Below are positions 47,436-64,000 of a DNA stretch of 64,000 bases, in pieces; positions within the stretch are counted from its first letter, which is position 1; every line of letters begins with the position of its first letter. This stretch comes from FCB group bacterium (GTDB lineage Bacteria > Zixibacteria > MSB-5A5 > GN15 > JAAZOE01). The stretch lies in assembly GCA_024231695.1 (NCBI GenBank), contig JAAEQF010000742.1, forward strand, positions 1 through 64,000. The letters are read 5' to 3'. Below the pieces are notes generated by a model. That model made no database searches. It saw only the letters and a list, made by a program, of their open reading frames with translations, and was not told where the DNA came from. Made by a program: the position numbers and the translations under genes.

Positions 47436-48893
47436 TTGACCATTTTACGTTTTTTGTATCTGGCAGTTTTGTTGATTTATTGCCTGGTTCCCTTGACGAC
47501 GCTGAGTCAGACTTTCGATCCGGCATCAGTCGGTCAAAACCAGTCTCCGACTTATTTGATCCCTCAGATTGATATAGCTGGAAACCTGTTGCAGCGGATG
47601 CAAATCAGATTTCTGGATACTTTCATTGATCCTGATCAATATATTGTGGGGCCGGGCGATAAATTGGGCCTGTTTTTCACTTCCAGCGATATCGGCAATG
47701 TCAGCGCCGAAATAAAATCCGACGGATATGTCTTTATAAAATCGGTCGGGTCCCTCAAAATTGGTCATGTAACCCTGCGACGCGCAATAGAGATAATCAT
47801 CGAAAAAGTGAAGACAGTTTATACTAATACCGAATTCGGTGTTCGTTTGACAGGTTATCGGGTGGTTCGCCTGAATGTGATCGGTGAGGTGGCCCATCCT
47901 GGAATTTACTACGCTCCGGCAATCTGGCGTGTTTCGGAAATCCTTGATCTGGCCGGTGGAGTCACATCTCGGGCTGCTGTCAGGAAAATTGCTTTACGTG
48001 GTTTGGGTGATACTTATCTGGCTGACTTGACCCGTTTCACCAGCCTTGGCGACACCGAGAAAAATCCGATGATTTGCAAAGGGAATATAATCGACGTTTC
48101 CGCTCGGCAGGTTGGATCGGAAATGATTACTATGGCCGGTCGGCTCAATCAACCGGGTGTATTTGAACATACGGCCGGGGACTGTTTGGCCGATTATATC
48201 GCCTTTGCCGGCGGACTAAACGGCAATCAGACCGAGATGGAGTTCATTATCTCCACTGCGGGCCGGGAAATCGACCGTCTTGATGGAGCGGCGAAAAGTG
48301 CCAACAATTATGAACTCAAGCCGGGAAATAACGTAAAAATTGAATGGAAAGACGGTCGTCGGAACTTTGGAACGGTCGGAATTTTTGGTGCGGTGATTCG
48401 GCCCGGAAGGTATGTGCTGGACCAGAGCGATTTGTCACTCCAGACCCTGTTGGATCGATGTGGCGGAGAGAGTGAAGACGGTTGCCCGGAAATGATTCGG
48501 ATATTTAGAACCGATTGGATAAAGGCCACACAAGGAACGGATTACGATGGGATCAATATAACCGGCGGATTGATCAGCCGGAATCCGCGCCAACCCTGGA
48601 ACCCGGCGGAGTTTATGCTTCTCGACGGCGATTCGGTTTTTATCCCGCACCGGACCGGGATGGTGGCTGTATCCGGGGCCGTAGCCTCACCGGGGTTAGT
48701 CCGGTTCAGCGACGGTCAAGGAATTGGGTATTATTTGAAGCAAGTGGGTGGACTCGGCTTCGATGCCGATAAATCGCGGATGGTTGTGATCAACCCGGCC
48801 ACCGGCGGCCGCATCGATGCCTCTGATGCAGGGGATTTGTTTGATAGTGAAATACTGTTTGTCCCTCAAAAGGAAAGCCAGACGAAACCATGA
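47436..48893 (+). CDS. Polysaccharide export protein (Wza-like, SLBB)
   Basis: A 485-residue exported protein with a signal peptide (LYLAVLLIYCLVPLTTLSQ). The N-terminal part holds the polysaccharide export domain (PDQYIVGPGDKLGLFF). Several SLBB repeats follow, each with a G-x-V-xxPG pattern: VIGEVAHPGIYY, MAGRLNQPGVFE, IFGAVIRPGRYV and VSGAVASPGLVRF. This architecture forms the periplasmic and outer-membrane channel for exopolysaccharide. It lacks a lipobox, unlike enterobacterial Wza. The only start that keeps the signal peptide is TTG 47436, with AGGTGA seven bases upstream. It overlaps the next gene by four bases (ATGA). Confidence 0.9.
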   Translation: MTILRFLYLAVLLIYCLVPLTTLSQTFDPASVGQNQSPTYLIPQIDIAGNLLQRMQIRFLDTFIDPDQYIVGPGDKLGLFFTSSDIGNVSAEIKSDGYVFIKSVGSLKIGHVTLRRAIEIIIEKVKTVYTNTEFGVRLTGYRVVRLNVIGEVAHPGIYYAPAIWRVSEILDLAGGVTSRAAVRKIALRGLGDTYLADLTRFTSLGDTEKNPMICKGNIIDVSARQVGSEMITMAGRLNQPGVFEHTAGDCLADYIAFAGGLNGNQTEMEFIISTAGREIDRLDGAAKSANNYELKPGNNVKIEWKDGRRNFGTVGIFGAVIRPGRYVLDQSDLSLQTLLDRCGGESEDGCPEMIRIFRTDWIKATQGTDYDGINITGGLISRNPRQPWNPAEFMLLDGDSVFIPHRTGMVAVSGAVASPGLVRFSDGQGIGYYLKQVGGLGFDADKSRMVVINPATGGRIDASDAGDLFDSEILFVPQKESQTKP

Positions 48894-50077
48894 TGCCAGA
48901 TGCGAATAGAAATTTTAATCTTTGGAAAATGCTTCTGGTTTTGGCCCGGTACAGGAAATTTATCGTCAGCCTGGTAGTCTTATCCACGTTAGCGGCGGCG
49001 GTGACGGTCTTGGTATTGCCCAAATGGTATCGCGCCAAAACATCGATTCTGCCGTCGCAGTACGACCATTCACTTGGAATTACCGGCAATTTTGCCCAAT
49101 TTACATTGTCCTCGGCCGGCTTTGATCTGCCGATCATGGCTACCCCCTCCGATGTCTATGCGACCATGCTTAAATCGGAAACGGTCGCCCGCAACGTGAT
49201 CGATGAGCTTGATCTGATGGCCTACTTTGAGCAGAAAACATTTCAGGAATGTTATCTGTATCTGAAGGAAAAGACCGCTATATCCATCACCGGCGAAGGT
49301 GTCGTCGAACTCTATTTTGAGGACAAGGATCCGGAGATGGCGGCCAAAGTAGCCAACAGCTTCATTTTCCATCTGGATCAACTCAATCGCGAGGTGAAGG
49401 CGGCCAAAGCCCGTTCCGACCGTGAATTCATACTGGAACGACTCAACACTACCAATATCGAGTTGGATAGTGCCCGGGCCCGGCTATTGGCTTTTCAAAC
49501 CAGCAACAAGGCCATTGATTTGGATCAGCAAAAGAAAATGGCCCTTGACGCGGCATCCGCTCTTAAAACCCAATTGGCTATGACGCAAGTTTCCCGCGAT
49601 GTCAAAAGCATTCGATATTCTCCGGATCATCCCGATGTGCTTCACCTGGAAAACGAAATCAAGCAATTGAAAAAACAATTGGCGATTGTCGAAAAAGGTT
49701 CCGGGGATGACCTCTCCTACTTCGGACTGCCTTTGGCGGATATACCCGAATTGGCCATTCGTCACGCCGAATTGGCCGCCGACCTGGCAATACAGGTAAA
49801 GGTCGCCGATCTGTTGACCGGCTTGTACGAAGAAGCCCGCATCAAAGAACAGAAAGACACGCCCACTATTTCGATACTGGAAACAGCCTATAAGCCGGAG
49901 ATCAAATATAGACCGCGGCGCACCTTGATCCTCATCGTAACTTTTGCAGCATCCCTTGTGCTGGCGATATTTCTGGCGCTGTTCGGCGATTATTTGTCCG
50001 AATTAAGGCGTTTGGCGCCGAACGATTTTGAACTACTGAAACGTACTCAGGATGAGTTCACCGGCAAAAAAGGCTGA
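48890..50077 (+). CDS. Wzz/GumC-type chain-length protein
   Basis: A 395-residue inner-membrane protein of the polysaccharide co-polymerase family. A first helix (KFIVSLVVLSTLAAAVTVLVL) is followed by a periplasmic coiled-coil domain (about 90-330) and a second helix (LILIVTFAASLVLAIFLALFG) near the Pro-rich stretch typical of the family (PEIKYRPRR). It would control chain length and link the polymerase with the export channel. It has no C-terminal BY-kinase domain and no separate kinase is in the cluster, so regulation by tyrosine phosphorylation is not encoded here. Confidence 0.9.
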   Translation: MMPDANRNFNLWKMLLVLARYRKFIVSLVVLSTLAAAVTVLVLPKWYRAKTSILPSQYDHSLGITGNFAQFTLSSAGFDLPIMATPSDVYATMLKSETVARNVIDELDLMAYFEQKTFQECYLYLKEKTAISITGEGVVELYFEDKDPEMAAKVANSFIFHLDQLNREVKAAKARSDREFILERLNTTNIELDSARARLLAFQTSNKAIDLDQQKKMALDAASALKTQLAMTQVSRDVKSIRYSPDHPDVLHLENEIKQLKKQLAIVEKGSGDDLSYFGLPLADIPELAIRHAELAADLAIQVKVADLLTGLYEEARIKEQKDTPTISILETAYKPEIKYRPRRTLILIVTFAASLVLAIFLALFGDYLSELRRLAPNDFELLKRTQDEFTGKKG

Positions 50078-50153
50078 TCCGATTATTGATGTGAATACAA
50101 AGTTATATTGACCGGGCCGGATATCGCCCGGTTTCCAACCGGGGGAATTGACA

Positions 50154-50912
50154 ATGAATACTCAAATTATAGATACGACCGCCTCTATCGGTGAGAGTAC
50201 TACCCTGGGCGAATTTGTTGTTATCGGTGAAAACGTTGTTATCGGGAAAGATTGCATTGTCGGCCATCATGTGGTCATTCATGACGATACGGTGTTGGGC
50301 GACAATATCAGAATAGACGACCACACCGTCATCGGCAAGGAGCCGATGCGGGCGGCCAATTCGGCCGTGACCAAAGATCAGCGATTGCCCTTATGCAAAA
50401 TAGCCGACGATTGTATCATCGGCACCGGCGCCATAATTTATCGCGGGTCGGACATAGGCCGGCGGGTTTTAATCGCCGATCTGGCCACAGTGCGCGAAAA
50501 CGTGACCATCGGTGAATACACCATCATCGGCCGCGGCGTGGCCGTGGAAAATTTCTGCACCATCGGCCGCTACTGTAAATTGGAAACCAATGTTTATATT
50601 ACGGCCTATAGCAAACTGGCCGATCGGGTTTTTGTGGCTCCCTGCACGGCCACATCCAACGACAATTTTGTCGGTCGCACCGAGGAGAGATTCAAGCATT
50701 TCAAGGGGGTGACAATCGAGACCGGCGCCCGTATCGGCGTTAATGCTGTCATCCTGCCCGGAAAAACGATAGAGGCCGACTCGTTGGTGGCGGCCGGTGC
50801 GGTAGTAACCCGCGATGTTCCGGCTCAAAAAATAGTGGCCGGCATGCCGGCGCGAGTAGTGCGTCGGGTGCCCGAAGAACAACTTCTTGAAAATCAGGAC
50901 TGGCCCGAATAA
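50154..50912 (+). CDS. Hexapeptide-repeat sugar acetyltransferase
   Basis: A 252-residue protein built mostly of left-handed beta-helix hexapeptide repeats (for example IGENVVIGKDCIVGHHVVI, IGEYTIIGRGVAV). The C-terminal part (NAVILPGKTIEADSLVAAG then AGMPARVVRR) matches sugar-nucleotide N-acetyltransferases of the WbpD/FdtC type. Such enzymes acetylate an amino group on a UDP- or dTDP-sugar. The next gene is a DegT aminotransferase, the enzyme that would supply that amino sugar, so the two probably act in sequence. ATG 50154 follows GGGGGAA; a TTG at 50148 is less likely. Confidence 0.88.
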   Translation: MNTQIIDTTASIGESTTLGEFVVIGENVVIGKDCIVGHHVVIHDDTVLGDNIRIDDHTVIGKEPMRAANSAVTKDQRLPLCKIADDCIIGTGAIIYRGSDIGRRVLIADLATVRENVTIGEYTIIGRGVAVENFCTIGRYCKLETNVYITAYSKLADRVFVAPCTATSNDNFVGRTEERFKHFKGVTIETGARIGVNAVILPGKTIEADSLVAAGAVVTRDVPAQKIVAGMPARVVRRVPEEQLLENQDWPE

Positions 50913-50923
50913 AGGAGAATAAA

Positions 50924-52027
50924 ATGGCGGTGCCTCTTATAGATTTAGGCCGGCAATATGAGCCGATTCGCGAGGATATCAACCGGGCTGTTAACCGGGT
51001 TCTGGATCATTGCGGCTTCATTCTGGGTCCGGAAGTAAAAGCCCTGGAAGCGGACGTGGCCGAGTTCTGCGACGTCAAACATGCTATCGGTGTGGCTTCC
51101 GGAACCGATGCGTTGCTCTTAGCCCTGCATGCCTGCGGCGTGGGGCCGGGAGCGGAAGTCATCACTTCTGATTTTTCCTTTTTTGCCTCAGCCGGAGTTA
51201 TCGACCGTTTGGGGGCCAAGCCGGTACTGATTGACATTGATCCGGAAACATATAATATCGATCCGGCGGAAATCATCAAGGCGATTACTCCCCAAACCCG
51301 AGCCATTATCCCGGTTCATCTTTTCGGCCAATGCGCCGACATGGATCCGATTATCGAAATCGCCAAAACGCATGGTCTGAAAGTAATCGAGGATGCAGCG
51401 CAGGCGATAGGGGCACAATACAAAAGCCGTAAAGCTGGAACCTTGGGTGATGCCGGCTGTTTTTCGTTTTTCCCGACCAAAAATCTCGGTTGCGCCGGTG
51501 ACGGTGGAATGATCGTCACCAATGAAGACGGTATTGCCGATATGGCCCGCAAACTTCGTGTTCACGGCGGACTTTCTGATTACAATCACGAGGTTGTCGG
51601 CTACAATTCCCGGCTGGATACTTTGCAGGCAGCTTTGCTTCGCGTTAAACTGCCATATTTGCCCCGGTGGACCAAGGCCCGCCGGGCACATGCCGCTCGC
51701 TACGACAGGGAACTGGCCGGGCTTCCATTGATTACTCCCAAAGTCAACGACGGCGCCTATCATATTTACAATCAATATACCATCGCCTGTGATCGGCGTG
51801 ATGAACTGGCCGCGCACTTAAAGGAAAATCAGATCGGTCACAAGGTTTACTATCCAGTCCCGTTTCATCTTCTGGAATGTTTCGCCGATCTCGGGCACAA
51901 TTCAGGAGCATTCCCCATTAGCGAACAAGCGGCTGGAAGCGTGCTCTCCCTTCCAATTTTCGGAGAAATGACCGAGACGGAGCAGACAGAGGTTATTGAG
52001 GTCGTTAAACGGTTTTTTGCCGGTTGA
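50924..52027 (+). CDS. DegT/DnrJ/EryC1 sugar aminotransferase
   Basis: A 367-residue PLP-dependent aminotransferase of the DegT/DnrJ/EryC1/StrS family, which converts keto-sugar nucleotides to amino sugars. Features are the N-terminal PLIDLGRQYEPI, ASGTDALLLAL, VIEDAAQAIGAQY with the PLP-contacting Asp, and the Schiff-base Lys in FPTKNLG. It is closest in pattern to WbpE/FdtB-like enzymes that act on 3-keto sugars, which fits the adjacent acetyltransferase. Its site AAAGGAG lies in the 11-base gap after the acetyltransferase. Confidence 0.93.
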   Translation: MAVPLIDLGRQYEPIREDINRAVNRVLDHCGFILGPEVKALEADVAEFCDVKHAIGVASGTDALLLALHACGVGPGAEVITSDFSFFASAGVIDRLGAKPVLIDIDPETYNIDPAEIIKAITPQTRAIIPVHLFGQCADMDPIIEIAKTHGLKVIEDAAQAIGAQYKSRKAGTLGDAGCFSFFPTKNLGCAGDGGMIVTNEDGIADMARKLRVHGGLSDYNHEVVGYNSRLDTLQAALLRVKLPYLPRWTKARRAHAARYDRELAGLPLITPKVNDGAYHIYNQYTIACDRRDELAAHLKENQIGHKVYYPVPFHLLECFADLGHNSGAFPISEQAAGSVLSLPIFGEMTETEQTEVIEVVKRFFAG

Positions 52028-52062
52028 GGTAAAAGATTAAGACGGGCGGATATAGAAAATAA

Positions 52063-52224
52063 ATGGCCGCGACAAAGGCAACAGTAGTATCCGTTAGCGG
52101 CGCGCGGCCGCGGTTGGTCAAACTGACCGGCAGAGCCACCGCGTTGAATGATAAAGTCACATCATTGTATTTTGCCCCTCTGCGCCCGATCAAAAATTAT
52201 CTTAAGGCCGGTCATGGGCAATAA
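52063..52224 (+). CDS. Possible small protein overlapping the flippase start
   Basis: An open frame of 53 codons, basic and without a membrane segment (it contains RPRLVKLTGRATALNDK), begins at ATG 52063 and ends at 52224, overlapping the flippase start by 11 bases. The overlap would allow translational coupling. There is no good ribosome binding site, only GGGCGGA too far upstream. It may be a real small gene or an accident of a 186-base gap. Confidence 0.25.
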   Translation: MAATKATVVSVSGARPRLVKLTGRATALNDKVTSLYFAPLRPIKNYLKAGHGQ

Positions 52225-53755
52225 TGTCGATTCGATCAAAGAGGCGACTATTGGAATTGCCCTGCTGGTATTGATTTCCAAAGGATTCGGCTTTGTGCGC
52301 GAAATGGTGATCGCCTATAAATTCGGCACCGGGATCGAATACGACGTTTATCTCATTGCCGCCTCCATTCCGATAGCGTTGTTTGCCTGGTTTGGGGCGA
52401 CCTTTTCCAGCATGTTTATTCCGGGCTATGTCCAGGCGCTCTCCGATAGAGATCGGTCTCGGGCTTGGAAGGCGTTGTGGACCGATTATAATCTGGCGCT
52501 TATCATTTCGGTGGTTGCGGTCTTGGCGCTGTTGGCGAGTGCTTCGCAGATTATCCGGGCCATCGCCCCCGGTCTCGATGAGAAATATTTGTCCGAGGCG
52601 GTCTATATGACCCGCGTCTCGGCAATTATTGCCGTTCTGGCGGTTTTGGAAGCGATCTTTCGCAGTGTGCTCAATGCCGAAAAAAAGTTCATGGTCCCGG
52701 CCGCGGGACCAGTGCTTTTCAATCTGGTTATCATCGGGTCGGTTGTCGGGTTGTCCGGTTCTCTTTCGGTCAGGGCTATTCTGTACGGGTTGGTTTTCGG
52801 ATACGCGGCTCAGGTTCTCTTTACTTATATCCCTTTCCGGCGTTTCGAAATTTCACGTCATTTCAATCTCCGCTTCAACCGCGAGCGCATCAGACCCTTT
52901 TTCGCCGCCGCTGTGGCTATCTTGATTATCGAAGGAGCGGCTCATCTGTACGGAATAGTGGATCGTTATTTCGCTTCCTCCATGGAGTCGGGCATCATCT
53001 CCACGCTGGGATATTCCTACAATCTGATGATGCTGCCGATAATGATTTTTGCTTATGCCCTGTCAACGGCTCTTTTCCCATATTTCAGCGACGCTTTTAC
53101 CGCCGGGGATAAAAAGAGGATCAGTTATCTGATTTCACGGGGAATATCGATCTCACTGCTTTTAGCTTTGCCGACGACCGTCATCATCTGGATCTTCAGC
53201 GATAAGCTGGTGATATTGCTTTTTCGTCGAGGTGCATTCGATATGGAATCGGTGCGGCTAACGGCCGGTCTGTTGAAATATTTCAGTCTTGGTCTGGCGG
53301 CGCAATTTATTCTGTATATTATGGTCCGGGCCTATTATGCGGCTAAAAAACTTAAACCGCTCCTGTTCCAGGTGGGTATAGTTGTAATTGCCAAAATTTT
53401 CCTGACCGCGTGGCTGGTCGGCCCGCTCGGCCATATTGGTCTGGCGGTGTCGGCGATTATCAGCTACTGTATCGGTGCGCTGATTCTTTATATTTGTGCC
53501 GGTTCGGTTCTAACCCGTCTTGACGGAAAGGGCATCTTCCTGTATTTTATTAAAGTTGTGACGGCCGCCGCCGCCGCTTTGGCAGCGGGACAATTGCTGT
53601 ATAATCGTTTTCTGGCCGATCTTGACCAATTCGGACCTTTGCTGTTTACGGCAGTTGCAGTAATCGGTGTAACCCTGATAGTCTTTACTGCCGTCGCCTA
53701 TTTCCTTAACATTCCCGACGTACGGGAAATAGCCGGTTTTCGAAAGAGGAGATAG
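52214..53755 (+). CDS. MurJ/MviN-type lipid-linked sugar flippase
   Basis: A 513-residue integral membrane protein of the MOP superfamily, MurJ/MviN branch, with about 14 helices. Early signatures are SKGFGFVREMVIAYKFG and the FSSMFIPGYVQ stretch; the middle contains IVDRYFASSMESGIISTLGYSYNL, typical of the family. In this cluster the likely role is flipping the lipid-linked repeat unit (Wzx function) rather than lipid II, though a true MurJ cannot be ruled out. I chose ATG 52214 since AAGG lies before it and the family begins about here; ATG 52148 would add 22 unrelated residues. Confidence 0.86.
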   Translation: MGNNVDSIKEATIGIALLVLISKGFGFVREMVIAYKFGTGIEYDVYLIAASIPIALFAWFGATFSSMFIPGYVQALSDRDRSRAWKALWTDYNLALIISVVAVLALLASASQIIRAIAPGLDEKYLSEAVYMTRVSAIIAVLAVLEAIFRSVLNAEKKFMVPAAGPVLFNLVIIGSVVGLSGSLSVRAILYGLVFGYAAQVLFTYIPFRRFEISRHFNLRFNRERIRPFFAAAVAILIIEGAAHLYGIVDRYFASSMESGIISTLGYSYNLMMLPIMIFAYALSTALFPYFSDAFTAGDKKRISYLISRGISISLLLALPTTVIIWIFSDKLVILLFRRGAFDMESVRLTAGLLKYFSLGLAAQFILYIMVRAYYAAKKLKPLLFQVGIVVIAKIFLTAWLVGPLGHIGLAVSAIISYCIGALILYICAGSVLTRLDGKGIFLYFIKVVTAAAAALAAGQLLYNRFLADLDQFGPLLFTAVAVIGVTLIVFTAVAYFLNIPDVREIAGFRKRR

Positions 53756-53762
53756 CCAACCG

Positions 53763-55166
53763 GTGTCAATGCGCATCAGTCATATCCCGTTTTACGACCG
53801 TTTGCCGGTATCCAGTTTGCGACTTTTGACTGCGGCCGCCGTTTATGCCGTGCCGGTGATGTTGCTGATGTTATGGAAACTACAGGCCGGAATTATTATG
53901 GCGGTTGCCCCCCTGCTGTTTTTAACTGTAGCTCACGGACCGACGGCAATCATGATTCTAATCGCCGCCTCGTTTGTTTATATCCCGCTGGGCGTCGATA
54001 TCTTCCTTCTGCCCGCCGATCTGGCAGCTTTTGTCCTAATCGCTGCGTACGTTGTCGATTTATTATGCCGTGGTGCATCCCCGGTCCGAAACCGGATTGC
54101 CCGCCCTTATCTGGCTTATTTGCTGGTTATCGTGATCTCCCTGAGCCTTGAAGGATTTACTGATCTATCTGTGCGATTTTTTAGTCGCCAGGTAGTGCTT
54201 TTCGGCACGTTTGCCGCGGTAGCTCATTTCGGGTATAAGATTCGCGTTCGCCATTTCCTGCAATTAATGATCATCGCTGCCGTCGTTAACTCCTCGTTTT
54301 CCCTGAGTCAATTCCTGATGGCCGGTGGACAGATTAGAACGTTCGGAGCGGCCGGACTCGGATTTGGCGATCATGCCATGTTGGCTTTTCTTATATCGGT
54401 TGTGTATTATTTCTGGTCGCGCGATCTGCGAGCGAGATTCCTGTATGGAATGGCGGCTATTATCACAATGGGCGGTATGGTAGCCACCCAGACCAGAGCC
54501 TCGATCATTACTGCCATGTGGGGGTTGGCGATCGTCATCTTCCTCGCTCTCTGGGCCGGGGCGCGTCTGAGCCGGAAATCACCGAGAAGAAATTTGTTTA
54601 TAGCCGGAGCGTTGGTTCTTCTGATCGTTCCTCTGCTGGCTCTCTACACGCCGATTTTTGAAGGTATTTTCTATCGTTTTGGAAGGATGGGCCTGGAGGC
54701 CACCGGCACTATTCTTCTGCGTGTTTCCTTGTGGAAGGCGGCCCTGTCCGCCTTTTGGGCCAATCCTTTGTTTGGTATCGGCACCGGGAATTTTGCGGCT
54801 ATTCATCTCTGGATTCCGGAGGTTCGTTTCGATCCCATTTTTTATCTGGTGGCCGGTTTATCGACTCATGCCCTGGCTATGACGGCACTGGCCGAAACCG
54901 GACTGGCCGGTTTTTCGACCCTGGCCTATTTCCTTGTTCGGGCTGTTAAAACCGCCTTCCGTAATTTTTCAGAAGCAGAATCGAATTACGATATCGCCGA
55001 TACTCACTGCCTGCTGGCGGTGGCTATTGCTGTACTGGGTTCATCCATTTATGCTGGATCCTGGTTCTGGGGTAACAACAGCTACCATATGGCCATTTTC
55101 TTCGGACTCATCGCCTCCTATCGACACCATCCCGATCCGCCCAAAGTCGGAGGGGAGGAGGCGTGA
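53763..55166 (+). CDS. O-antigen ligase/polymerase-like membrane protein
   Basis: A 467-residue membrane protein with about 11-12 helices and the Wzy_C/O-antigen ligase pattern. The diagnostic part is the large periplasmic loop after helix 9 or so, with RVSLWKAALSAFWANPLFGIGTG followed by ALAMTALAETGLAGF, a combination shared by WaaL and Wzy enzymes. Arg and His residues there act in catalysis in known members. It is the likely polymerase of this cluster. GTG 53763 or ATG 53769 may be the start; the difference is two residues. The end overlaps the glycosyltransferase start by four bases. Confidence 0.83.
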   Translation: MSMRISHIPFYDRLPVSSLRLLTAAAVYAVPVMLLMLWKLQAGIIMAVAPLLFLTVAHGPTAIMILIAASFVYIPLGVDIFLLPADLAAFVLIAAYVVDLLCRGASPVRNRIARPYLAYLLVIVISLSLEGFTDLSVRFFSRQVVLFGTFAAVAHFGYKIRVRHFLQLMIIAAVVNSSFSLSQFLMAGGQIRTFGAAGLGFGDHAMLAFLISVVYYFWSRDLRARFLYGMAAIITMGGMVATQTRASIITAMWGLAIVIFLALWAGARLSRKSPRRNLFIAGALVLLIVPLLALYTPIFEGIFYRFGRMGLEATGTILLRVSLWKAALSAFWANPLFGIGTGNFAAIHLWIPEVRFDPIFYLVAGLSTHALAMTALAETGLAGFSTLAYFLVRAVKTAFRNFSEAESNYDIADTHCLLAVAIAVLGSSIYAGSWFWGNNSYHMAIFFGLIASYRHHPDPPKVGGEEA

Positions 55167-56224
55167 TAATTGTTATGCTGGCTCAGGCCGGCTCCGTTCA
55201 TAATACACGTTGGAGTCGCGGGTTGGCGGCCAGAGGTCATCGCCTGATTATAATCAGCAATGATAGCCTCGAATTCCCGGCCACGGAGATCGAAACGATT
55301 ATTCTTCCCGGAAGTTCCGCAATCGCTTATTTTAAAAATATTCCCCGCGTCCGCAAAATCATCCGTCGCATCAAGCCGGATATCGTTCATGCTCATTATG
55401 CCACTGGCTATGGCCTGTGGGGAAGCTGTCAGAACACAGCGCCTTTTGTTCTCACTGTCTGGGGTAGCGACATAGAGGATGCCTTAAAAAATAAACTGAC
55501 TACAGCCCCCATAGTCCGGAGGGCTCTGAAAATGGCCCAATGTGTCACTTCGGCCAGCCGCCACCTGGTTGAAAGGACACTGGCCTTCGAACCATCAGTT
55601 GAGGATAAAATCCATGTCGTTCCCTTCGGCGTTCCGCTTCCAAAAGAGGTGGATGATTCCTCAAAGACAAACGATGACATCATCCGCTTCGTTTTCACCA
55701 AGTATTACAAACCGGTTTATGCTCCCGACATTGCCCTGAAAGCCTTCGCCGTGGCCGCTCGTAAAAATAAAAACATTCGTCTGACAATGATCGGCGGCGG
55801 ACCGATGGAAGCCGACTTGAAGCAGATGGCCGAAAACTGGCATCTGACCGGGCGAGTGGAGATAAAAGGCTGGCAGAGCATGGCTGCCACCGAAAAGTTG
55901 ATTAACGCCGCCGATGTGATGTTGATGCCTTCCCGTCGAGAATCTTTTGGAGTGGCCGCGTTGGAAGCTCTGGCACATGGCAAACCGGTGATTGGATCCA
56001 AAGTAGGAGGCATCCCGGAGATTGTCGAAGACGAAGTCAATGGATTGTTGATACCCACCGAGGACCCCGAATCCTTGGCTATGGCTATCCTGAGACTGGC
56101 CGGAGACAGGGATTTACGCCGCCGGATGGGCCGTGCGGGTAAGGCCGGTGTCCGGGAACGGTTTGATTTTGAAAAGTGTCTGGATATGATGGAAGAGTTG
56201 TATGACCGAATCGGCACTTCGTAA
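55163..56224 (+). CDS. GT4 family glycosyltransferase
   Basis: A 353-residue retaining glycosyltransferase with GT-B fold. The N-terminal domain begins MIIVMLAQAGSVHNTRWS. The C-terminal domain shows the donor-binding features of GT4: GGGPMEADL, INAADVMLMPSRRESFGVAALEALAHG (with the E-x7-E motif, ESFGVAALE) and GGIPEIV. It transfers a sugar from a nucleotide donor to the growing lipid-linked chain; the donor cannot be told. The start is GTG 55163 following GAGGAGG, inside the end of the polymerase gene. Confidence 0.92.
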   Translation: MIIVMLAQAGSVHNTRWSRGLAARGHRLIIISNDSLEFPATEIETIILPGSSAIAYFKNIPRVRKIIRRIKPDIVHAHYATGYGLWGSCQNTAPFVLTVWGSDIEDALKNKLTTAPIVRRALKMAQCVTSASRHLVERTLAFEPSVEDKIHVVPFGVPLPKEVDDSSKTNDDIIRFVFTKYYKPVYAPDIALKAFAVAARKNKNIRLTMIGGGPMEADLKQMAENWHLTGRVEIKGWQSMAATEKLINAADVMLMPSRRESFGVAALEALAHGKPVIGSKVGGIPEIVEDEVNGLLIPTEDPESLAMAILRLAGDRDLRRRMGRAGKAGVRERFDFEKCLDMMEELYDRIGTS

Positions 56225-56243
56225 AAACGCGGAAGTATAATCA

Positions 56244-56930
56244 ATGACCGGAGAGCGAAAAAAAATCGATCAGATCTTCCGAGATCGCCAAGCTTTGGCT
56301 TCAAAATATTCACTCGACATTCCCGGAAACAGGTTAAATCTTGATCTCCTGCTTGAAGAGATCGTGAAATTTATCGGTCGGTCGTTCTCTGACCTGTCAT
56401 CGGTCAAAATGCTCGATCTGGGCGCGGGGGAACTATTCTGGGTGGATCAGTTTGCCCGCATGGGTCTGACTGATAGAAACTGTTTCGGGTCGGACTTGCT
56501 TTTGTGGCGGATGAAAGTCGGCCGCGAAATCGGCCGCCGCCATAACGCTGCCGCTGCTTCGGCCGCCGAACTTCCCTTTGCCGATGAAAGTTTCGATCTG
56601 GTAACTCAATTCGTTATGATGACTTCAATTACCGATTTGGCTGTCAGGGAGAAAGCTGTAGCGGAAATGAAGCGGATTCTGCGCCCCGGAGGTTTTATCC
56701 TCTGGCATGATTTCCGAATCAATAATCCTTCCAATCCGCATACTCTGGCAATCGGTAAAAAAGAGCTGTATGGCTATTTCACGGATTGGCCGATTGACTG
56801 CCGGACGACTACTCTCCTGCCTCCACTGGCCAGAAAAATCGGTGGGAAACTATCACCGCTCTTGAAATTATTATACTCTCTGCCTATCTTGCGCACACAT
56901 TATCTGGCGTTAATTGGACCGAAAGGATAG
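56244..56930 (+). CDS. SAM-dependent methyltransferase
   Basis: A 228-residue class I methyltransferase. The SAM-binding motif I is MLDLGAGELFW, the acidic end of beta-2 is in FGSDLLLWRM, motif II/III are AAELPFADESFDLVTQFVMM and KRILRPGGFILWHDF. It probably methylates a sugar or a lipid-linked intermediate of the polysaccharide, since it is located between a glycosyltransferase and an aminotransferase. It starts 20 bases after the glycosyltransferase stop. It overlaps nothing and ends one base before the next start. Confidence 0.88.
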   Translation: MTGERKKIDQIFRDRQALASKYSLDIPGNRLNLDLLLEEIVKFIGRSFSDLSSVKMLDLGAGELFWVDQFARMGLTDRNCFGSDLLLWRMKVGREIGRRHNAAAASAAELPFADESFDLVTQFVMMTSITDLAVREKAVAEMKRILRPGGFILWHDFRINNPSNPHTLAIGKKELYGYFTDWPIDCRTTTLLPPLARKIGGKLSPLLKLLYSLPILRTHYLALIGPKG

Positions 56931-56931
56931 C

Positions 56932-58092
56932 ATGAAAATAACCGGCGTACCGTTTTACAGGCAGTCATTCGGACGAAAAGAGATAGCCGAAGTCACCGAT
57001 ACCATCAAGAGCGGCTGGATCACTACCGGCAAAAAGGCCCGACTGCTGGAAGAAAAAATCTGCGCTTATGTCGGCGCGCGACAAGCCATGGCTGTCAATT
57101 CCTGCACGGCCGGTATGCACCTGCTTCTAAAGGCGTCCGGGATCGGTCCCGGAGACGAAGTCGTCACTACTCCCTACACGTTTGCTTCCACCAGCGAGGC
57201 TATCCTTTATACCGGAGCCAAACCGGTTTACTGCGACATCAATTACGACAGCCTTAATATCGAAGCCGATACGGCTGCGGCCAAATTAAATCGACGGACC
57301 AAAGCGATCCTGCCGGTGCATATTGCCGGTCTGCCTCTGCATATGGATCGCTTCGTTTCTTTGGTCCGAAGCAAAAAGATAAAGCTTTTCGACGATGCCG
57401 CCCATGCCATCGGTGCCTCCTATAAAGGGAAAATGATCGGATCGATCGGTGATGGCAGCGCTTTCAGTTTTTACGCCACCAAAAACCTGACCACCGGCGA
57501 AGGGGGGATGGTCACCACTCGACACGCCGGACTGGCTAAGAAGATAAAACTGCTTTCGCTTCATGCCATGAGCAAAGGCGCCTGGAAAAGATATGCCAAA
57601 GGCGGGTCATGGCGTTATGATCTGCTCGATTTGGGGTACAAATACAATCTGTCCGACATGGCGGCCTCGCTGGGTCTGGTGCAATTCGAAAAATTCGATA
57701 AACTTCAAGCCGCACGTAAAAAAGCAGCGGCGCGATACATAAAAAACCTACAGGATATCGACGCGCTCAAAATGCCGCTGGTCGAAGATTGCTCCGACCA
57801 TGCCTGGCATCTGTTTATTCTGAGACTCCGGCTGAAACAGTTGAAAATCAACCGTGACCATTTTATCGACGAATTGAATAAACGCAATATCGGTACCTCG
57901 GTGCATTTCATTCCCCTTTTCCTGCAGTCGTATTATCGGAAAAACTTGAATCTCAATCGCCGTGATTTCCCCAATGCCGACAAGGCTTTTCGCGAAGTGA
58001 TTACTTTGCCGTTTTTCCCCGATCTTAAAAATGCCGAGATCGATTATGTCTGCGAGGTGATCGAGACTATTTGTCGGAAGCAGAAGCGATGA
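56932..58092 (+). CDS. DegT family sugar aminotransferase, second copy
   Basis: A 386-residue PLP enzyme of the same superfamily as the earlier one but a distinct branch. It has GVPFYRQSFGRKEIAEV, KSGWITTGKKARLLEE, SCTAGMHLLLKASGIGPGDE, LFDDAAHAIGASYKG and the Schiff-base Lys in FYATKNLTTGEGG. The sequence pattern resembles 4-amino sugar aminotransferases such as PseC, ArnB or PglE types. The cluster therefore probably makes two different amino sugars. I chose ATG 56932 with AAAGGA upstream. It overlaps the sugar transferase start by four bases (ATGA). Confidence 0.93.
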   Translation: MKITGVPFYRQSFGRKEIAEVTDTIKSGWITTGKKARLLEEKICAYVGARQAMAVNSCTAGMHLLLKASGIGPGDEVVTTPYTFASTSEAILYTGAKPVYCDINYDSLNIEADTAAAKLNRRTKAILPVHIAGLPLHMDRFVSLVRSKKIKLFDDAAHAIGASYKGKMIGSIGDGSAFSFYATKNLTTGEGGMVTTRHAGLAKKIKLLSLHAMSKGAWKRYAKGGSWRYDLLDLGYKYNLSDMAASLGLVQFEKFDKLQAARKKAAARYIKNLQDIDALKMPLVEDCSDHAWHLFILRLRLKQLKINRDHFIDELNKRNIGTSVHFIPLFLQSYYRKNLNLNRRDFPNADKAFREVITLPFFPDLKNAEIDYVCEVIETICRKQKR

Positions 58093-58676
58093 AAAGGAGC
58101 TTCGATTTTGTCGTCGCTCTGCTGGGATTATTGATCCTGTCGCCGCTTTTACTTATAATCTCGCTGGCTACTCTGGCCACTATGGGTTCTCCGATATTTT
58201 TTCGGCAGATTCGAGTCGGTCGTGGCGGAGTGGATTTCAAAATCATTAAATTCCGTAGCATGATTCGTGATCGGGCAGGTATGGCTATTACCACAGGCAA
58301 AGACACCCGAATTACTCCCTTCGGTCGGTTTCTACGCCGAACTAAACTGGATGAGTTGCCGCAACTGTTCAATGTCGTTTCCGGCGATATGTCGCTGGTC
58401 GGGCCGCGGCCGGAAGTCCCTCAATTTGTCCGCCTTTACACCGAAACGCAACGCCGGGTCCTGGCTGTTCGTCCCGGCTTGACCGATCCGGCTTCGATTG
58501 TATATCGCGATGAGGAAAGCGTCCTGGCTCGTTATGGCGACCCCGAGAGGGCATACATCGAGAAGATCATGCCGGCCAAGTTAAAAATGAATCTGGCTTA
58601 TCTCGAAAAGGCGGGTTTCTGGACCGATTTTGGCCTCATCCTCAAGACCCTGAAACGCCTTAGTTTAAACCGCTAA
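58089..58676 (+). CDS. Phosphoglycosyl transferase (PglC-like)
   Basis: A 195-residue monotopic phosphoglycosyl transferase of the bacterial sugar transferase family. It initiates the repeat unit by moving a sugar-1-phosphate from a nucleotide sugar to a polyprenyl phosphate. The re-entrant membrane helix is FDFVVALLGLLILSPLLLII, followed by the family motifs IIKFRSM, TPFGRFLRRTKLDELPQL (with the catalytic DE pair) and GDMSLVGPRPE. It is the short form without the four-helix N-terminal domain of WbaP/WcaJ. The next gene carries an N-terminal four-helix segment of that kind. Confidence 0.93.
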   Translation: MKRSFDFVVALLGLLILSPLLLIISLATLATMGSPIFFRQIRVGRGGVDFKIIKFRSMIRDRAGMAITTGKDTRITPFGRFLRRTKLDELPQLFNVVSGDMSLVGPRPEVPQFVRLYTETQRRVLAVRPGLTDPASIVYRDEESVLARYGDPERAYIEKIMPAKLKMNLAYLEKAGFWTDFGLILKTLKRLSLNR

Positions 58677-58731: not shown

Positions 58732-60534
58732 ATGCTCAGAAAACGATACACATATATTCAGGCTGTAGTCGATTTTATCGTCTTCAATCTGGTCACTTGG
58801 TTTCTGGCCTTTGTCCAGCCTGCCCTTGGGCGTCTCTATGGCACCGGACTTCTGTCCAATCTGATGCCCGGCCTGATCGCACTGATGATGGTCGCCCTGC
58901 TGGCTGTTTTTCGCCAGTATCAGCTCAAAAGGCGCGACCGCTTTCTGCGGCAGTTTCTGAGTGCTTTCAATGTCGTGACCCTGGGCTTTTTGCTGATTGT
59001 CGTCATCAGCTTCGACCTTGGAGCCTTGGTAGCCTCCGAACGCGGTTTGCTGGGATTGTTTCTATTAGGGCTTCTTCTGGCCACCGCCGTTTCCCGTATT
59101 ATCACCTATCTTTGGATGGGTAGCCGGCCCGATTTTTCCCTCAAGGAACCGGTAATACTTAAAAATGGCAACGGTCATAACAGTACTGTGGATCAACCCT
59201 TAATCCTGCGGTCGAATCTGACGATTGACGAAGCGATCAGTAAAATCGATGAGTCGCCATTCGACTTTGCCGTTTTGACCGATGAGGATGGGTATTTTAC
59301 CGGAACGGTTACCGACGGCGACATTATCGAAGCTCAACTCAATGACGCCGACAAAAACAAACCGATCCGCGAGATCATGAACCGCAGTCATCCGGTGGCT
59401 CGGGATTCGTTGACGGCAATCAAAATGCGCCAGATGATGATCGACCGAAACTTGCGCTTTTTGCCACTTCTGAACAATGTCGGTAAACCGGTGCGAGTGG
59501 TTTTGCATTCCGATCTGGACCCCAAATACCGAAACGGTAAAATCGAAAATAAATTGCGGCGAATTTTGATTATCGGCGGAGCCGGATATATCGGATCGAT
59601 TATGGTCCGCTATCTGCTCAAACGCGGTTATCATGTTTCAGTTCTTGATAATCTCACTTTCGGCTATGACGCCCTTGAGGGTCTGGACAATCATCCAGCC
59701 TATCGTTTTTATAAAGGCGACGCCCGCAATATTCAGGACCTGATGACTTCGATGAAAGACGTCGATGCCGTAGTGCATCTGGCGGCCATTGTCGGCGACC
59801 CGGCCTGCGCTCTTGATCCTCGCGCGACTATCGATATCAATTATGAAGCCTCCAAGCTTTTGGTCGATGCCTGCCTGCATAAGAAAGTCGATCGTTTGCT
59901 TTTCGCCTCCAGTTGCTCGGTTTATGGCGCCAGCGAAAACGGCGAACTGCTGACCGAGGAGTCGCCTTTAAATCCCGTTTCGCTTTATGCCGAAACCCGT
60001 CTGCGCAGCGAAGAGGCGATTCTTAACCGAGCCGTGCCGCCTTTGGCCGTGACCATGTTCCGGTTGGCGACAGTGTTCGGATTTTCTTATCGCCCTCGTT
60101 TCGATCTGGTAGTCAATATCCTGACGGCGCGGGCTTTGGAGGACGGCGAAATCTCGATTTTCGGCGGTTCGCAATGGCGGCCCAATGTACATGTCCATGA
60201 CGTGGTCCGAGCTTTCGTGGCCGGGCTGGAAGCGCCCAAAGAAAATATCGACCGGCAGATTTTCAATCTCGGGTCCGAAAGTCAAAACTATCGTATCTCC
60301 GAACTGGGCGAACTGGTCAAGGAAGCTGTTCCGGGAACGAAAGTGAAACTGGTCGAAGCCGAGATGGACAAGCGTGATTATAAAGTCGGGTTCGATAAGA
60401 TTGAAAGCATGTTGAACTGGAAAGCGGGGATGACTGTCCGCGACGGTATCCAGGAAATTATCGACGCTCATCGTAATAAAAAATTCGGTCATTATTCCAA
60501 ACGCATCTATTCCAACCTCAAACAAATGCAATAG
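58732..60534 (+). CDS. 4TM-CBS-epimerase fusion protein
   Basis: A 600-residue three-part protein. Residues 1-130 form four hydrophobic helices resembling the membrane domain of polytopic phosphoglycosyl transferases and of WbpM/PglF dehydratases. Residues 155-262 are a CBS pair (LTIDEAISKIDESPFDFAVL; REIMNRSHPVARDSLTAIKM). Residues 277-600 are an extended SDR of the sugar-nucleotide epimerase/dehydratase type with the NAD motif GGAGYIGS and SSCSVYGASE. The catalytic YxxxK reads Y419-AET-R423, an arginine in place of lysine. In WbpM/PglF a different Rossmann domain links membrane and SDR parts, so the CBS linker is unusual and could allow adenylate-level control of precursor synthesis. No clear ribosome binding site precedes the ATG. 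The stop codon lies within a hairpin repeat. Confidence 0.85.
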   Translation: MLRKRYTYIQAVVDFIVFNLVTWFLAFVQPALGRLYGTGLLSNLMPGLIALMMVALLAVFRQYQLKRRDRFLRQFLSAFNVVTLGFLLIVVISFDLGALVASERGLLGLFLLGLLLATAVSRIITYLWMGSRPDFSLKEPVILKNGNGHNSTVDQPLILRSNLTIDEAISKIDESPFDFAVLTDEDGYFTGTVTDGDIIEAQLNDADKNKPIREIMNRSHPVARDSLTAIKMRQMMIDRNLRFLPLLNNVGKPVRVVLHSDLDPKYRNGKIENKLRRILIIGGAGYIGSIMVRYLLKRGYHVSVLDNLTFGYDALEGLDNHPAYRFYKGDARNIQDLMTSMKDVDAVVHLAAIVGDPACALDPRATIDINYEASKLLVDACLHKKVDRLLFASSCSVYGASENGELLTEESPLNPVSLYAETRLRSEEAILNRAVPPLAVTMFRLATVFGFSYRPRFDLVVNILTARALEDGEISIFGGSQWRPNVHVHDVVRAFVAGLEAPKENIDRQIFNLGSESQNYRISELGELVKEAVPGTKVKLVEAEMDKRDYKVGFDKIESMLNWKAGMTVRDGIQEIIDAHRNKKFGHYSKRIYSNLKQMQ

Positions 60535-60770: not shown

Positions 60771-60798
60771 GATATAAGCGCGTTAAGTGGAGGAGAAT

Positions 60799-62361
60799 AT
60801 GCGATTTGCCTTTTTATCTCTGCTCATCATTGTATCGTTATTACAACCTTCCTCAATAATTTCGGCGGTTGAAATCACTTTTTCAGAGCCTTTTCTTATT
60901 GAAACTGATATCGATAGCACATGCAATTATACATATCCTACCTTATTAACTGATAGCGCCGGGGTTTTGCTTTATAATCAGCTTTCCACTGACACCAGTA
61001 CGCAGATTATTGGATACCGATTCAATGTTGAGGGATCTCAGCCGGTGATAGAATCGCGTGGAAATGTCATACAACTGGATACTGCCCTTTGTGCGCCGTG
61101 GTTCTATGATCTTGGTGACCGTAAGGCGCTTTTCTATCATGAGTACACGGATAAATATCGAGGGCGCATGATATTTTTCAATGGCGATTTTCCGCTTCAG
61201 GAAGATGTCGACAATCGAATTCACCTTTACTCCGCCAACCAGGTTCACCCGCCGGCAGCGCTTAGAATCGATTCGCTTCTATATTTGACCCAGTTTTATA
61301 ATTGGAGTCATGGTGCGGAAGAAGTCTTTTTGTCATCGGCCAATGTACTAATTAATCTGACAAATTACTCCTTTCTTCCTCCCGACGATTACGTGTTTTT
61401 AAGTTCCACCGCTGGACGCACTGCGCTGACTCCATGCAATGACACCGCAGTAGTCTCAGAGTATTGGCAATTCTGCAATGACCATGCCCCGGCCAGTTGT
61501 CGTGAGTATTTCTGTGGCTATTTCGGTGTTTTCTGGCAAGACACCACATATTTGAGATTCTCATTTAATGAACAGACCGGTTCCTGTAATTCAGGTTTTG
61601 ATCATCATAACGATTGGTACTCCGATATATTTAGCGTCAAGGTCGGGGAAGAATATGTGATCTGGCGGGAAAACAGTTTTGATTTAATGCAGGCAAATAC
61701 AGTTGACCGAACATTTGACCGGGTTGTCGATTTGCAGGCCGCCGCAGGGATAGACTTTGGATATTCTACTTCGCACCCATTTACAATTAATCCGGTGAAA
61801 ATTGACGACGGCTACGCCGTTTTTATGATTAACAACCTTCATCCGTGGGAAAGTTATCTGCTGGTTTTTGATGGCCATTGGAAAATTGAAGGTCATGCCA
61901 TTATTCCGTTGGCTGATTCAGCACACGAGTTTTCTCAGTTTGCGTATTGTCCACAGGACGAACAAATTTATTTTGCCTATTCAGCTTCGCTATCGGATTC
62001 GTATTCAACCTCTCGGGTATTTCTGCAATCGGTCGCTATCAACAACGTCACCGATGTCGAGGACGTTAATGGTCCCCTCCCTGGACAATTTTCATTAGAG
62101 CAAAATTCTCCAAATCCATTTAATCCATTGACTAAAATCGAATTCTATCTCCCACGGCAGTCAAAAGTCGAACTGTCGATATATAATATTCAAGGCCAAA
62201 AAGTAGCTACGTTGATTAACAGGAGTCTGCCGGTCGGTGATCATGAAATTATCTGGAACGGCACCGATGACGCCGGAAAGCCCGTTGCTTCTGGTGTCTA
62301 TTTTTATAAAATCATTTCCGGTGATCTCTCCCAAGCACGTAAAATGATTCTTTTGAAGTAA
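60799..62361 (+). CDS. Secreted protein with FlgD-like C-terminal domain
   Basis: A 520-residue secreted protein. It begins with a signal peptide (FAFLSLLIIVSLLQPSSIISA). Residues 25-420 are a beta-rich region of unknown family containing several Cys (DTALCAP, DHAPASCREYFCGYFG, TGSCNSGF), possibly a beta-propeller. The last 90 residues form a FlgD-like sorting domain: NSPNPFNPLTKIEFYL, LSIYNIQGQKV, SGVYFYKI and a KMILLK end. This tail marks proteins exported by type IX-like systems in FCB bacteria. ATG 60799 follows GGAGGAG; an ATG at 60787 lies upstream of that site. The stop codon touches a hairpin repeat. Confidence 0.82.
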   Translation: MRFAFLSLLIIVSLLQPSSIISAVEITFSEPFLIETDIDSTCNYTYPTLLTDSAGVLLYNQLSTDTSTQIIGYRFNVEGSQPVIESRGNVIQLDTALCAPWFYDLGDRKALFYHEYTDKYRGRMIFFNGDFPLQEDVDNRIHLYSANQVHPPAALRIDSLLYLTQFYNWSHGAEEVFLSSANVLINLTNYSFLPPDDYVFLSSTAGRTALTPCNDTAVVSEYWQFCNDHAPASCREYFCGYFGVFWQDTTYLRFSFNEQTGSCNSGFDHHNDWYSDIFSVKVGEEYVIWRENSFDLMQANTVDRTFDRVVDLQAAAGIDFGYSTSHPFTINPVKIDDGYAVFMINNLHPWESYLLVFDGHWKIEGHAIIPLADSAHEFSQFAYCPQDEQIYFAYSASLSDSYSTSRVFLQSVAINNVTDVEDVNGPLPGQFSLEQNSPNPFNPLTKIEFYLPRQSKVELSIYNIQGQKVATLINRSLPVGDHEIIWNGTDDAGKPVASGVYFYKIISGDLSQARKMILLK

Positions 62362-62564: not shown

Positions 62565-64000
62565 TCAATTCGGGCAAAGTGGCGTGCCACTTTTAAAGAT
62601 GAAATTTATGAGATAGACCGGATCGCCAATGTTGATACTTCCATCGCTGTTGGTATCTCCAATTTCCATCGGGACGGGCGAGGGGCCGTCCTTGAACACA
62701 AAGTTCATCAAATAGGTCACGTCGCCGACATTTACTACCCCGTCCTCATTGGCGTCGCCCAATCTGCAAATACCGTGTTCGTAGTAAATATCCAACATCT
62801 CCTGCCCGTGGCCTTTTGAGGGGGACTGAAACCACGCTCGCCAGAATTCGATAATGTCATGGGGGCGATGACCATCGATAAAACGATTGAGTAGAACGTC
62901 GAAGATATCATAAGCTCCCATATATAATGCATCACCCGTACCATCCGGATTGTAAGCATTAGGCCATGGAGCCGGGGGTACCTGATATGTGCTGTAGTCA
63001 TCATCGGGATAATCATAGATATCCCATAGAAGACAGCAAACTGCCCCTTCGTATTTAATTCCATAGTCGTTTGCCGAACCGTTTATTTGACTATTAAAAA
63101 GATCTTGTCCATTTTCGGCATTATATGAATCGGTGTCAGCAAAATTATTGTATAGATCGTGGTAAAAACTGTCATTTCTGACTGCGTCCGAAAAGAAAGT
63201 GGCAAAGCCTTCAGTTGCGGCAATTTCAGGCGTCGATATACTAAACCAACCGTGCGGTCCGGGATCCCAGTCATCAAAAAACTGATAATTGCCCTCCAAA
63301 AAGTGGCCGTATTCATGCATAATTACGTCTTTGTCATAAGTGTCTGGATTATCAGAAATATTCAAAATATGAATATAGATACTGTCAGGATCGTAATAGG
63401 TTCCATATGCTTCATTGTTGGATATGATCTGAATAAGCGGTGCGTACATTCCCGTTACATTGATCCAGTAGTCCTGAGCAACCAATGCCGCATCGGCTAT
63501 GAAAAAGGGGCCGCTTGCTGTTGCATCGGCGATGATTGTTGTATCATACACGCCGCTGGGCAAATCCGGCTGCTCGGGTGTTTCAATTTTATGAATATCT
63601 CCGTCGTATTCCTCTCTCACAGTGGTTGCGTCGTTGGCGGCATAAATGCGAAAATAGACATCCTGACCGGATAATCCTCCGTCATCAGTATTATCAACTG
63701 GCCCAAACGCAAAACTTCCATCGTTTTCTGTTACTGTTACATCTAATAATTGATCTGTGATTAGATCATTGTCCCACATCTCAATAGTAACATTACGTAT
63801 CGGTTCCTGACTTATCGTTGGCGGAACCGGATCTGTGTAAAATAGCTGGCCGGAGTAAGTGATTTTGTTGGAAATCGTAAAAAAATAGGGGCCGTTCCAG
63901 GGTGGCTTATAGATATCTATACCATCATTGTATGCCCATAACCAATACCCGCCATATCCAAACATTGCCGAATCAAGACATATCGTAGTACCTTCGGCTG
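62565..64000 (-). CDS. Metallopeptidase-like dockerin protein, 5' end off window
   Basis: The reading frame is still open at the right edge, so the N-terminus lies outside; about 478 residues are visible. The centre holds a zinc-peptidase motif HEYGH at 63303-63317, followed about 20 residues later by an EIAATEGFATFF segment with a possible third ligand. This places it among HExxH gluzincin-type proteins. The C-terminus is a dockerin pair (GDANEDGVVNVGDVTYL and GDTNSDGSINIGDPVYL) ending in PLCPN. It is probably a secreted peptidase. An in-frame ATG at 63965 is not the true start, because codons upstream continue without a stop and no ribosome binding site is seen there. It converges on the FlgD-tailed protein gene across hairpin repeats. 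Confidence 0.8.
   Translation of the reverse strand, partial: AEGTTICLDSAMFGYGGYWLWAYNDGIDIYKPPWNGPYFFTISNKITYSGQLFYTDPVPPTISQEPIRNVTIEMWDNDLITDQLLDVTVTENDGSFAFGPVDNTDDGGLSGQDVYFRIYAANDATTVREEYDGDIHKIETPEQPDLPSGVYDTTIIADATASGPFFIADAALVAQDYWINVTGMYAPLIQIISNNEAYGTYYDPDSIYIHILNISDNPDTYDKDVIMHEYGHFLEGNYQFFDDWDPGPHGWFSISTPEIAATEGFATFFSDAVRNDSFYHDLYNNFADTDSYNAENGQDLFNSQINGSANDYGIKYEGAVCCLLWDIYDYPDDDYSTYQVPPAPWPNAYNPDGTGDALYMGAYDIFDVLLNRFIDGHRPHDIIEFWRAWFQSPSKGHGQEMLDIYYEHGICRLGDANEDGVVNVGDVTYLMNFVFKDGPSPVPMEIGDTNSDGSINIGDPVYLINFIFKSGTPLCPN

Follow-up and report, generated by a model that had tools for sequence, protein, structure and literature searches.

A Cj1427-like SDR fused to a four-helix membrane domain and a CBS pair beside a small phosphoglycosyl transferase in one family of Zixibacteria

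We analyzed a 64,000-nucleotide stretch of DNA from a Candidatus Zixiibacteriota MAG, here called the window, in which a surface polysaccharide operon is followed by genes for a small phosphoglycosyl transferase (PGT) and for a protein that joins a membrane domain, a CBS pair and an extended SDR (TM-CBS-SDR). The relevant features are as follows.

48890..58092, plus strand: surface polysaccharide operon (profile matches; synteny in six relatives)
56914..58092, plus strand: DegT/DnrJ/EryC1/StrS aminotransferase, ArnB/PseC-like (PF01041, 399 bits)
58071..58676, plus strand: small, catalytic-core-only PGT, PglC-like, with conserved KLDELPQL (PF02397, 192.6 bits)
58732..60534, plus strand: TM-CBS-SDR fusion gene, a single ORF of 600 aa
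58732..59130, plus strand: four-helix membrane domain of the large-PGT/PglF type, residues 1-133 (TIGR03025 and model helices)
59188..59526, plus strand: CBS pair, approximately residues 153-265 (PF00571, two stretches)
59560..60501, plus strand: extended SDR domain, Cj1427-like, approximately residues 277-590 (PF01370)
59986..60000, plus strand: active-site motif Y419-A-E-T-R423 (YxxxK in the family), with codon CGT for R423

These assignments bear out a sequence-only reading of the locus, which had placed a membrane domain, a CBS pair and an extended SDR in one ORF, with the CBS pair replacing the usual Rossmann linker and YxxxK changed to YxxxR, directly behind a PglC-like enzyme lacking such a membrane domain. 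Residues 13-132 of the fusion match positions 2-119 of TIGR03025, the membrane part of large PGTs (E 1.6e-6), two orthologues (L034 and L036) align to this part as well, and the AlphaFold model contains four long helices (residues 2-28, 40-59, 71-95 and 101-128). PF00571 detected two CBS repeats (42.9 bits; cut-off 24), the second of which was poorly modeled; a separate prediction for just the N-terminal half had low confidence and was set aside. The CBS pair occupies the position held in WbaP and PglF by the Rossmann-like DUF PF13727, for which a profile search of the fusion returned no match (best E 0.36). The SDR domain (155.6 bits to PF01370; pLDDT mostly >90) carries the motifs GGAGYIG, SSCS and Y419-AET-R423. 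The PGT aligns only to TIGR03025 positions 254-438, the C-terminal catalytic part, and therefore lacks the four-helix domain.

The operon encodes Wzz, a hexapeptide acyltransferase, a DegT, a MurJ/Wzx-type flippase, a polymerase/ligase-like membrane protein (assigned by reading), a GT4, a methyltransferase and a DegT. In six relatives, the order acyltransferase, DegT, flippase, polymerase-like protein, GT4, methyltransferase, DegT, PGT and fusion recurs with about 35-77% identity as far as the contigs extend, and several relatives have two additional genes absent from the window operon, for a UDP-GlcNAc 2-epimerase and a further glycosyltransferase. The DegT two genes upstream of the fusion (56914-58092), whose nearest solved structures are those of ArnB (PDB 1mdo, E 7.8e-83), is kept in all family genomes and is the probable partner of the SDR. 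Immediately behind the fusion gene, 60787-62361 encodes a secreted protein with a FlgD-Ig/Por-type C-terminal sorting domain, in place of which several relatives have seryl-tRNA synthetase-like genes. Further downstream, 62565-63965 on the minus strand encodes a large putative secreted protein ending in two dockerin-like repeats (GDANEDGVVNVGDV and GDTNSDGSINIGDP).

A search with residues 1-277 of the fusion covered 133 genomes of the phylum Zixibacteria. The full fusion was present in all seven searched genomes of the window's family (window included; one copy cut by a contig end) and in none of the 126 others, where matches were mainly to sugar-isomerase CBS proteins. When a profile of the region was run against genomes of Planctomycetota (392) and Bacillota (300), the matches were essentially to CBS domains only, and a contig scan with narrow patterns recovered only the same family plus distant SDRs. 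Outside the family, the two top-scoring profile matches to the CBS pair that were checked are CBS-nucleotidyltransferases (L081 and L145, assigned by reading), which adjoin NeuC-like epimerases and, unlike the window protein, join CBS to a nucleotidyltransferase rather than to an SDR. The architecture is thus not common, and among the genomes searched it looks confined to one Zixibacteria family. Five full-length orthologues from other species keep it at 67-72% identity; mean identity among the fusions is 80% for the SDR half versus 59-61% for the membrane and CBS domains. TM-CBS-SDR is a real, conserved and rare architecture that varies a known theme by combining domains in a new way, and we found no description of it in the open-access literature.

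For the SDR, Cj1427 (PDB 6vo6) was both the best sequence match (phmmer, E 9e-54) and the first-ranked Foldseek hit (E 3.7e-29, TM-score 0.92 on the target), at only about 35% identity. Cj1427 shares the Tyr and Ser/Thr active site with the window SDR and differs in being a soluble, single-domain protein without membrane or CBS domain, in which YxxxK is kept; the window protein has Arg423 at this Lys position, with Y419 present, and three of its orthologues have Lys. Cj1427 oxidizes GDP-heptose at C4 by a ping-pong mechanism in which alpha-ketoglutarate re-oxidizes the tightly held NADH (PMC10680097). One SDR of the wider family, from Deinococcus (L140:2757-5062), adjoins an L-2-hydroxyglutarate oxidase gene, a neighborhood consistent with alpha-ketoglutarate as electron acceptor, as in Cj1427 chemistry.

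Position 423 was compared across homologues. Six complete orthologues divide evenly into Arg (window, CGT; G071, CGC; G069, CGG) and Lys (AAG in all three), with Arg found in three genera of the family and Lys in two. The 45 relatives outside the fusion family have Lys (42) or Asn (3), giving 45 Lys, three Arg and three Asn among 51 sequences of the wider SDR group, in all of which Y419, S396, R444, R456 and R483 are invariant. The YxxxN motif occurs in the SDR-only relatives L117 (YAKAN), L121 (YARAN) and L123 (YAQAN); a PGT homologue lies within about 600 bases of L117. Arg is thus not peculiar to the window, and its occurrence in three genera with three different CGN codons rules out a base-call error or a one-off substitution. 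Since the Lys and Arg groups are split in the SDR tree (support 91-92) and the outgroups carry Lys, a single Lys-to-Arg change fits best; going from AAG to CGT or CGC requires at least two base changes. The third codon base has drifted while Arg stayed constant, which argues that Arg423 is maintained. Eight alignment columns fully separate Lys and Arg orthologues, including SDR positions 360, 363 and 394. Compensation of R423 by S394 was considered and is weakened by the co-occurrence of S394 and Lys in other SDRs. On this comparison, we take Arg423 as a tolerated, maintained variant that would keep the positive charge beside Tyr419. We found no description of YxxxR SDRs in the open-access literature, and the natural Lys/Arg orthologue pair offers a clean test of how far the SDR lysine is replaceable in nature.

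Related proteins in other lineages carry parts of the architecture. In TM-SDRs from Planctomycetota (L126 and L127) and a phage record (L150), helices are directly fused to a closely related SDR, as in the window; unlike the window protein, they have no CBS pair and keep YxxxK, and they carry neither a Rossmann nor a CBS linker. In L127, the TM-SDR gene is contiguous with the genes that follow it, for a DegT (44% identity to 56914) and a PGT (48% identity to 58071). The occurrence of this trio in another phylum, together with synteny in all seven family genomes, upholds the earlier suggestion of a membrane-tethered sugar-nucleotide enzyme tied to the initiating transferase. The L150 protein, a four-helix TM-SDR (L150:2476-4002, YARSK), is encoded near exopolysaccharide genes in a record of 42.6 kb titled "Aphanizomenon phage Yong-DA" (ON073792.1); records of identical length are listed for Planktothrix. 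Haloarchaeal CBS-SDRs (L132 and L137-L139) share a CBS-containing N-terminus and the same SDR branch with the window protein but have no membrane helices, keep Lys and have a degenerate or unrecognized second CBS repeat (CBS 31 bits in L137); their genes lie on plasmids with a DegT directly upstream. Pantoea and Klebsiella plasmids carry an SDR followed by a DegT, and a wider relative in Planctomycetota (L097/L128; 3236-5563 in L128) unites SDR and DegT in one 776-aa protein. SDR-DegT linkage therefore recurs in the window family, Planctomycetota L127, haloarchaea, Pantoea, Klebsiella and one fusion. The pairing is not universal, as many SDR-only Zixibacteria relatives outside the clade lack a DegT in the surrounding 1.5 kb or so.

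In the tree, the TM-SDR, CBS-SDR and TM-CBS-SDR forms cluster, though the grouping is only modestly supported (ultrafast bootstrap 66). When the four-helix domains from Zixibacteria and Planctomycetota were compared directly as profiles, no link emerged, and their shared TIGR03025 matches are the sole connection between them. A linker swap as the origin of the CBS pair is disfavored by the existence of TM-SDR and CBS-SDR relatives without a Rossmann linker, and the SDR may have gained its membrane and CBS domains separately. In one Planctomycetota genome, a CBS-containing frame (L094:446-3558) directly precedes genes for an SDR and a DegT and is a possible source of CBS domains fused elsewhere. 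Two further fusion-like long frames (L098/L129 and L130) were discarded as apparently spurious upstream open frames in high-GC DNA.

From the observed architecture, conservation, gene partners, Lys/Arg distribution and nearest structure, we infer a reaction, substrate, reaction order, ligand and activity. As a reasoned proposal with a probability of about 0.55, the fusion is an active, membrane-tethered NDP-sugar 4-oxidoreductase that feeds the aminotransferase and then the PGT. The NAD-dependent, Cj1427-like extended SDR would be held at the inner membrane by its four-helix anchor and would most likely oxidize C4 of an NDP-sugar. The ArnB/PseC-like DegT (56914-58092) would aminate the 4-keto product, and the core-only PGT (58071-58676) would transfer the 4-amino sugar to undecaprenyl phosphate and so initiate synthesis of a surface polysaccharide. 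DegT aminotransferases regenerate alpha-ketoglutarate from glutamate; because alpha-ketoglutarate is the compound that re-oxidizes NADH in Cj1427, the SDR-DegT pair could be self-sustaining. The CBS pair may act as a nucleotide or nucleotide-sugar sensor, and feedback control of the committed step is its likely role because it stands where WbaP and PglF carry a nucleotide-sensing DUF. A broader version of this proposal, in which SDR 4-dehydrogenase, aminotransferase and small PGT work as one membrane unit, the adjacent CBS pair replaces the DUF sensing of large PGTs and YxxxR was selected as fully active, is tentative.

Among other explanations, an active NDP-hexose or NDP-HexNAc 4-epimerase of the GalE/Gne type, which would pass its epimer to the adjacent PGT with the 4-keto form only a bound intermediate and the aminotransferase serving another branch, is possible though rather unlikely. 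It would have the same fold, a UDP-GlcNAc 4-epimerase (6wjb) and several GalE structures are among the Foldseek hits that follow Cj1427, and galE tops the NCBIfam matches of the SDR; that match, however, reaches 118.5 bits against an equivalog cut-off of 262.3, Cj1427 scores far better in Foldseek than any epimerase (E 3.7e-29 versus 3.2e-24), and the repeated DegT linkage, with one SDR-DegT fusion, also speaks against this reading. A WbpM/PglF-type UDP-GlcNAc 4,6-dehydratase with its linker exchanged for CBS would explain the shared order of membrane domain, middle nucleotide-sensing module and SDR (PMC10942596), and yet is very improbable. 4,6-Dehydratases carry an [ST]D[EK] triplet (PMC8987622), at which position the window SDR has S394-C395-S396; with the acid pair absent, 4,6-dehydration is unlikely, and Mx3K is missing as well. 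The SDR scores 155.6 bits with PF01370 against only 28.9 with PF02719, a family difference that, with the SCS and YxxxR motifs, rules out WbpM/PglF membership, and TM-SDR relatives exist without either linker. The initially proposed likeness to WbpM accordingly stands for the architecture and fails for the SDR, which belongs to the Cj1427-like branch.

The sequence-only reading had also offered a non-catalytic scaffold for the initiating transferase. A dead or crippled SDR serving the small PGT as membrane scaffold and nucleotide sensor, with Arg marking the loss of the catalytic Lys, would accord with the occurrence of Arg in three genera and with an adjacent PGT lacking the anchor and DUF of large PGTs; moreover, Lys-to-Arg replacement usually lowers SDR activity. 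We consider it improbable. Conservation is highest in the SDR half of the protein, all examined active-site positions except K423 are intact, among them Ser, Tyr and the remaining conserved Arg positions, Arg conserves the charge, and Lys-bearing orthologues have the same architecture and operon. WbpM and PglF, furthermore, are active even though Met takes the place of their catalytic Tyr (PMC8987622). On these sequence comparisons, the fusion enzyme is probably active, a point on which we are fairly confident.

The proposed 4-oxidoreductase is best viewed alongside the membrane-bound systems that share its layout. In large PGTs (TIGR03025) such as WbaP, a four-helix domain matching the same TIGR03025 positions as the fusion stands in one protein with PF13727 and the catalytic core PF02397, whereas in the window the core is a separate adjacent gene and PF13727 is absent. 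The WbaP DUF binds uridine nucleotides, UMP inhibits WbaP (IC50 4.1 uM), and PglF has the same DUF (PMC10942596). By analogy with this position, the CBS pair of the fusion probably senses a nucleotide or nucleotide sugar. CBS1 retains G191xxT194xxD197, a GxxTxxD nucleotide-ribose motif found by alignment, which only suggests ligand binding; control by adenine nucleotides, as put forward in the sequence-only reading, is one option, and a uridine nucleotide or a nucleotide sugar is just as plausible a ligand. The UDP-GlcNAc 4,6-dehydratases PglF and WbpM resemble the window protein in their four-helix membrane domain, middle nucleotide-sensing module and C-terminal SDR, and supply an initiating PGT pathway, as proposed here; they differ in their PF13727 middle module, their PF02719 SDR with TDK and Mx3K, and their dehydratase chemistry. 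The membrane-plus-DUF module of large PGTs and PglF-like dehydratases has been puzzling and was recently found in WbaP to sense uridine nucleotides. The window combines a different SDR with the same kind of anchor and a different sensor at the same position, alongside a PGT without both, a layout that points to repeated selection for a membrane-anchored, ligand-gated supply of the first sugar.
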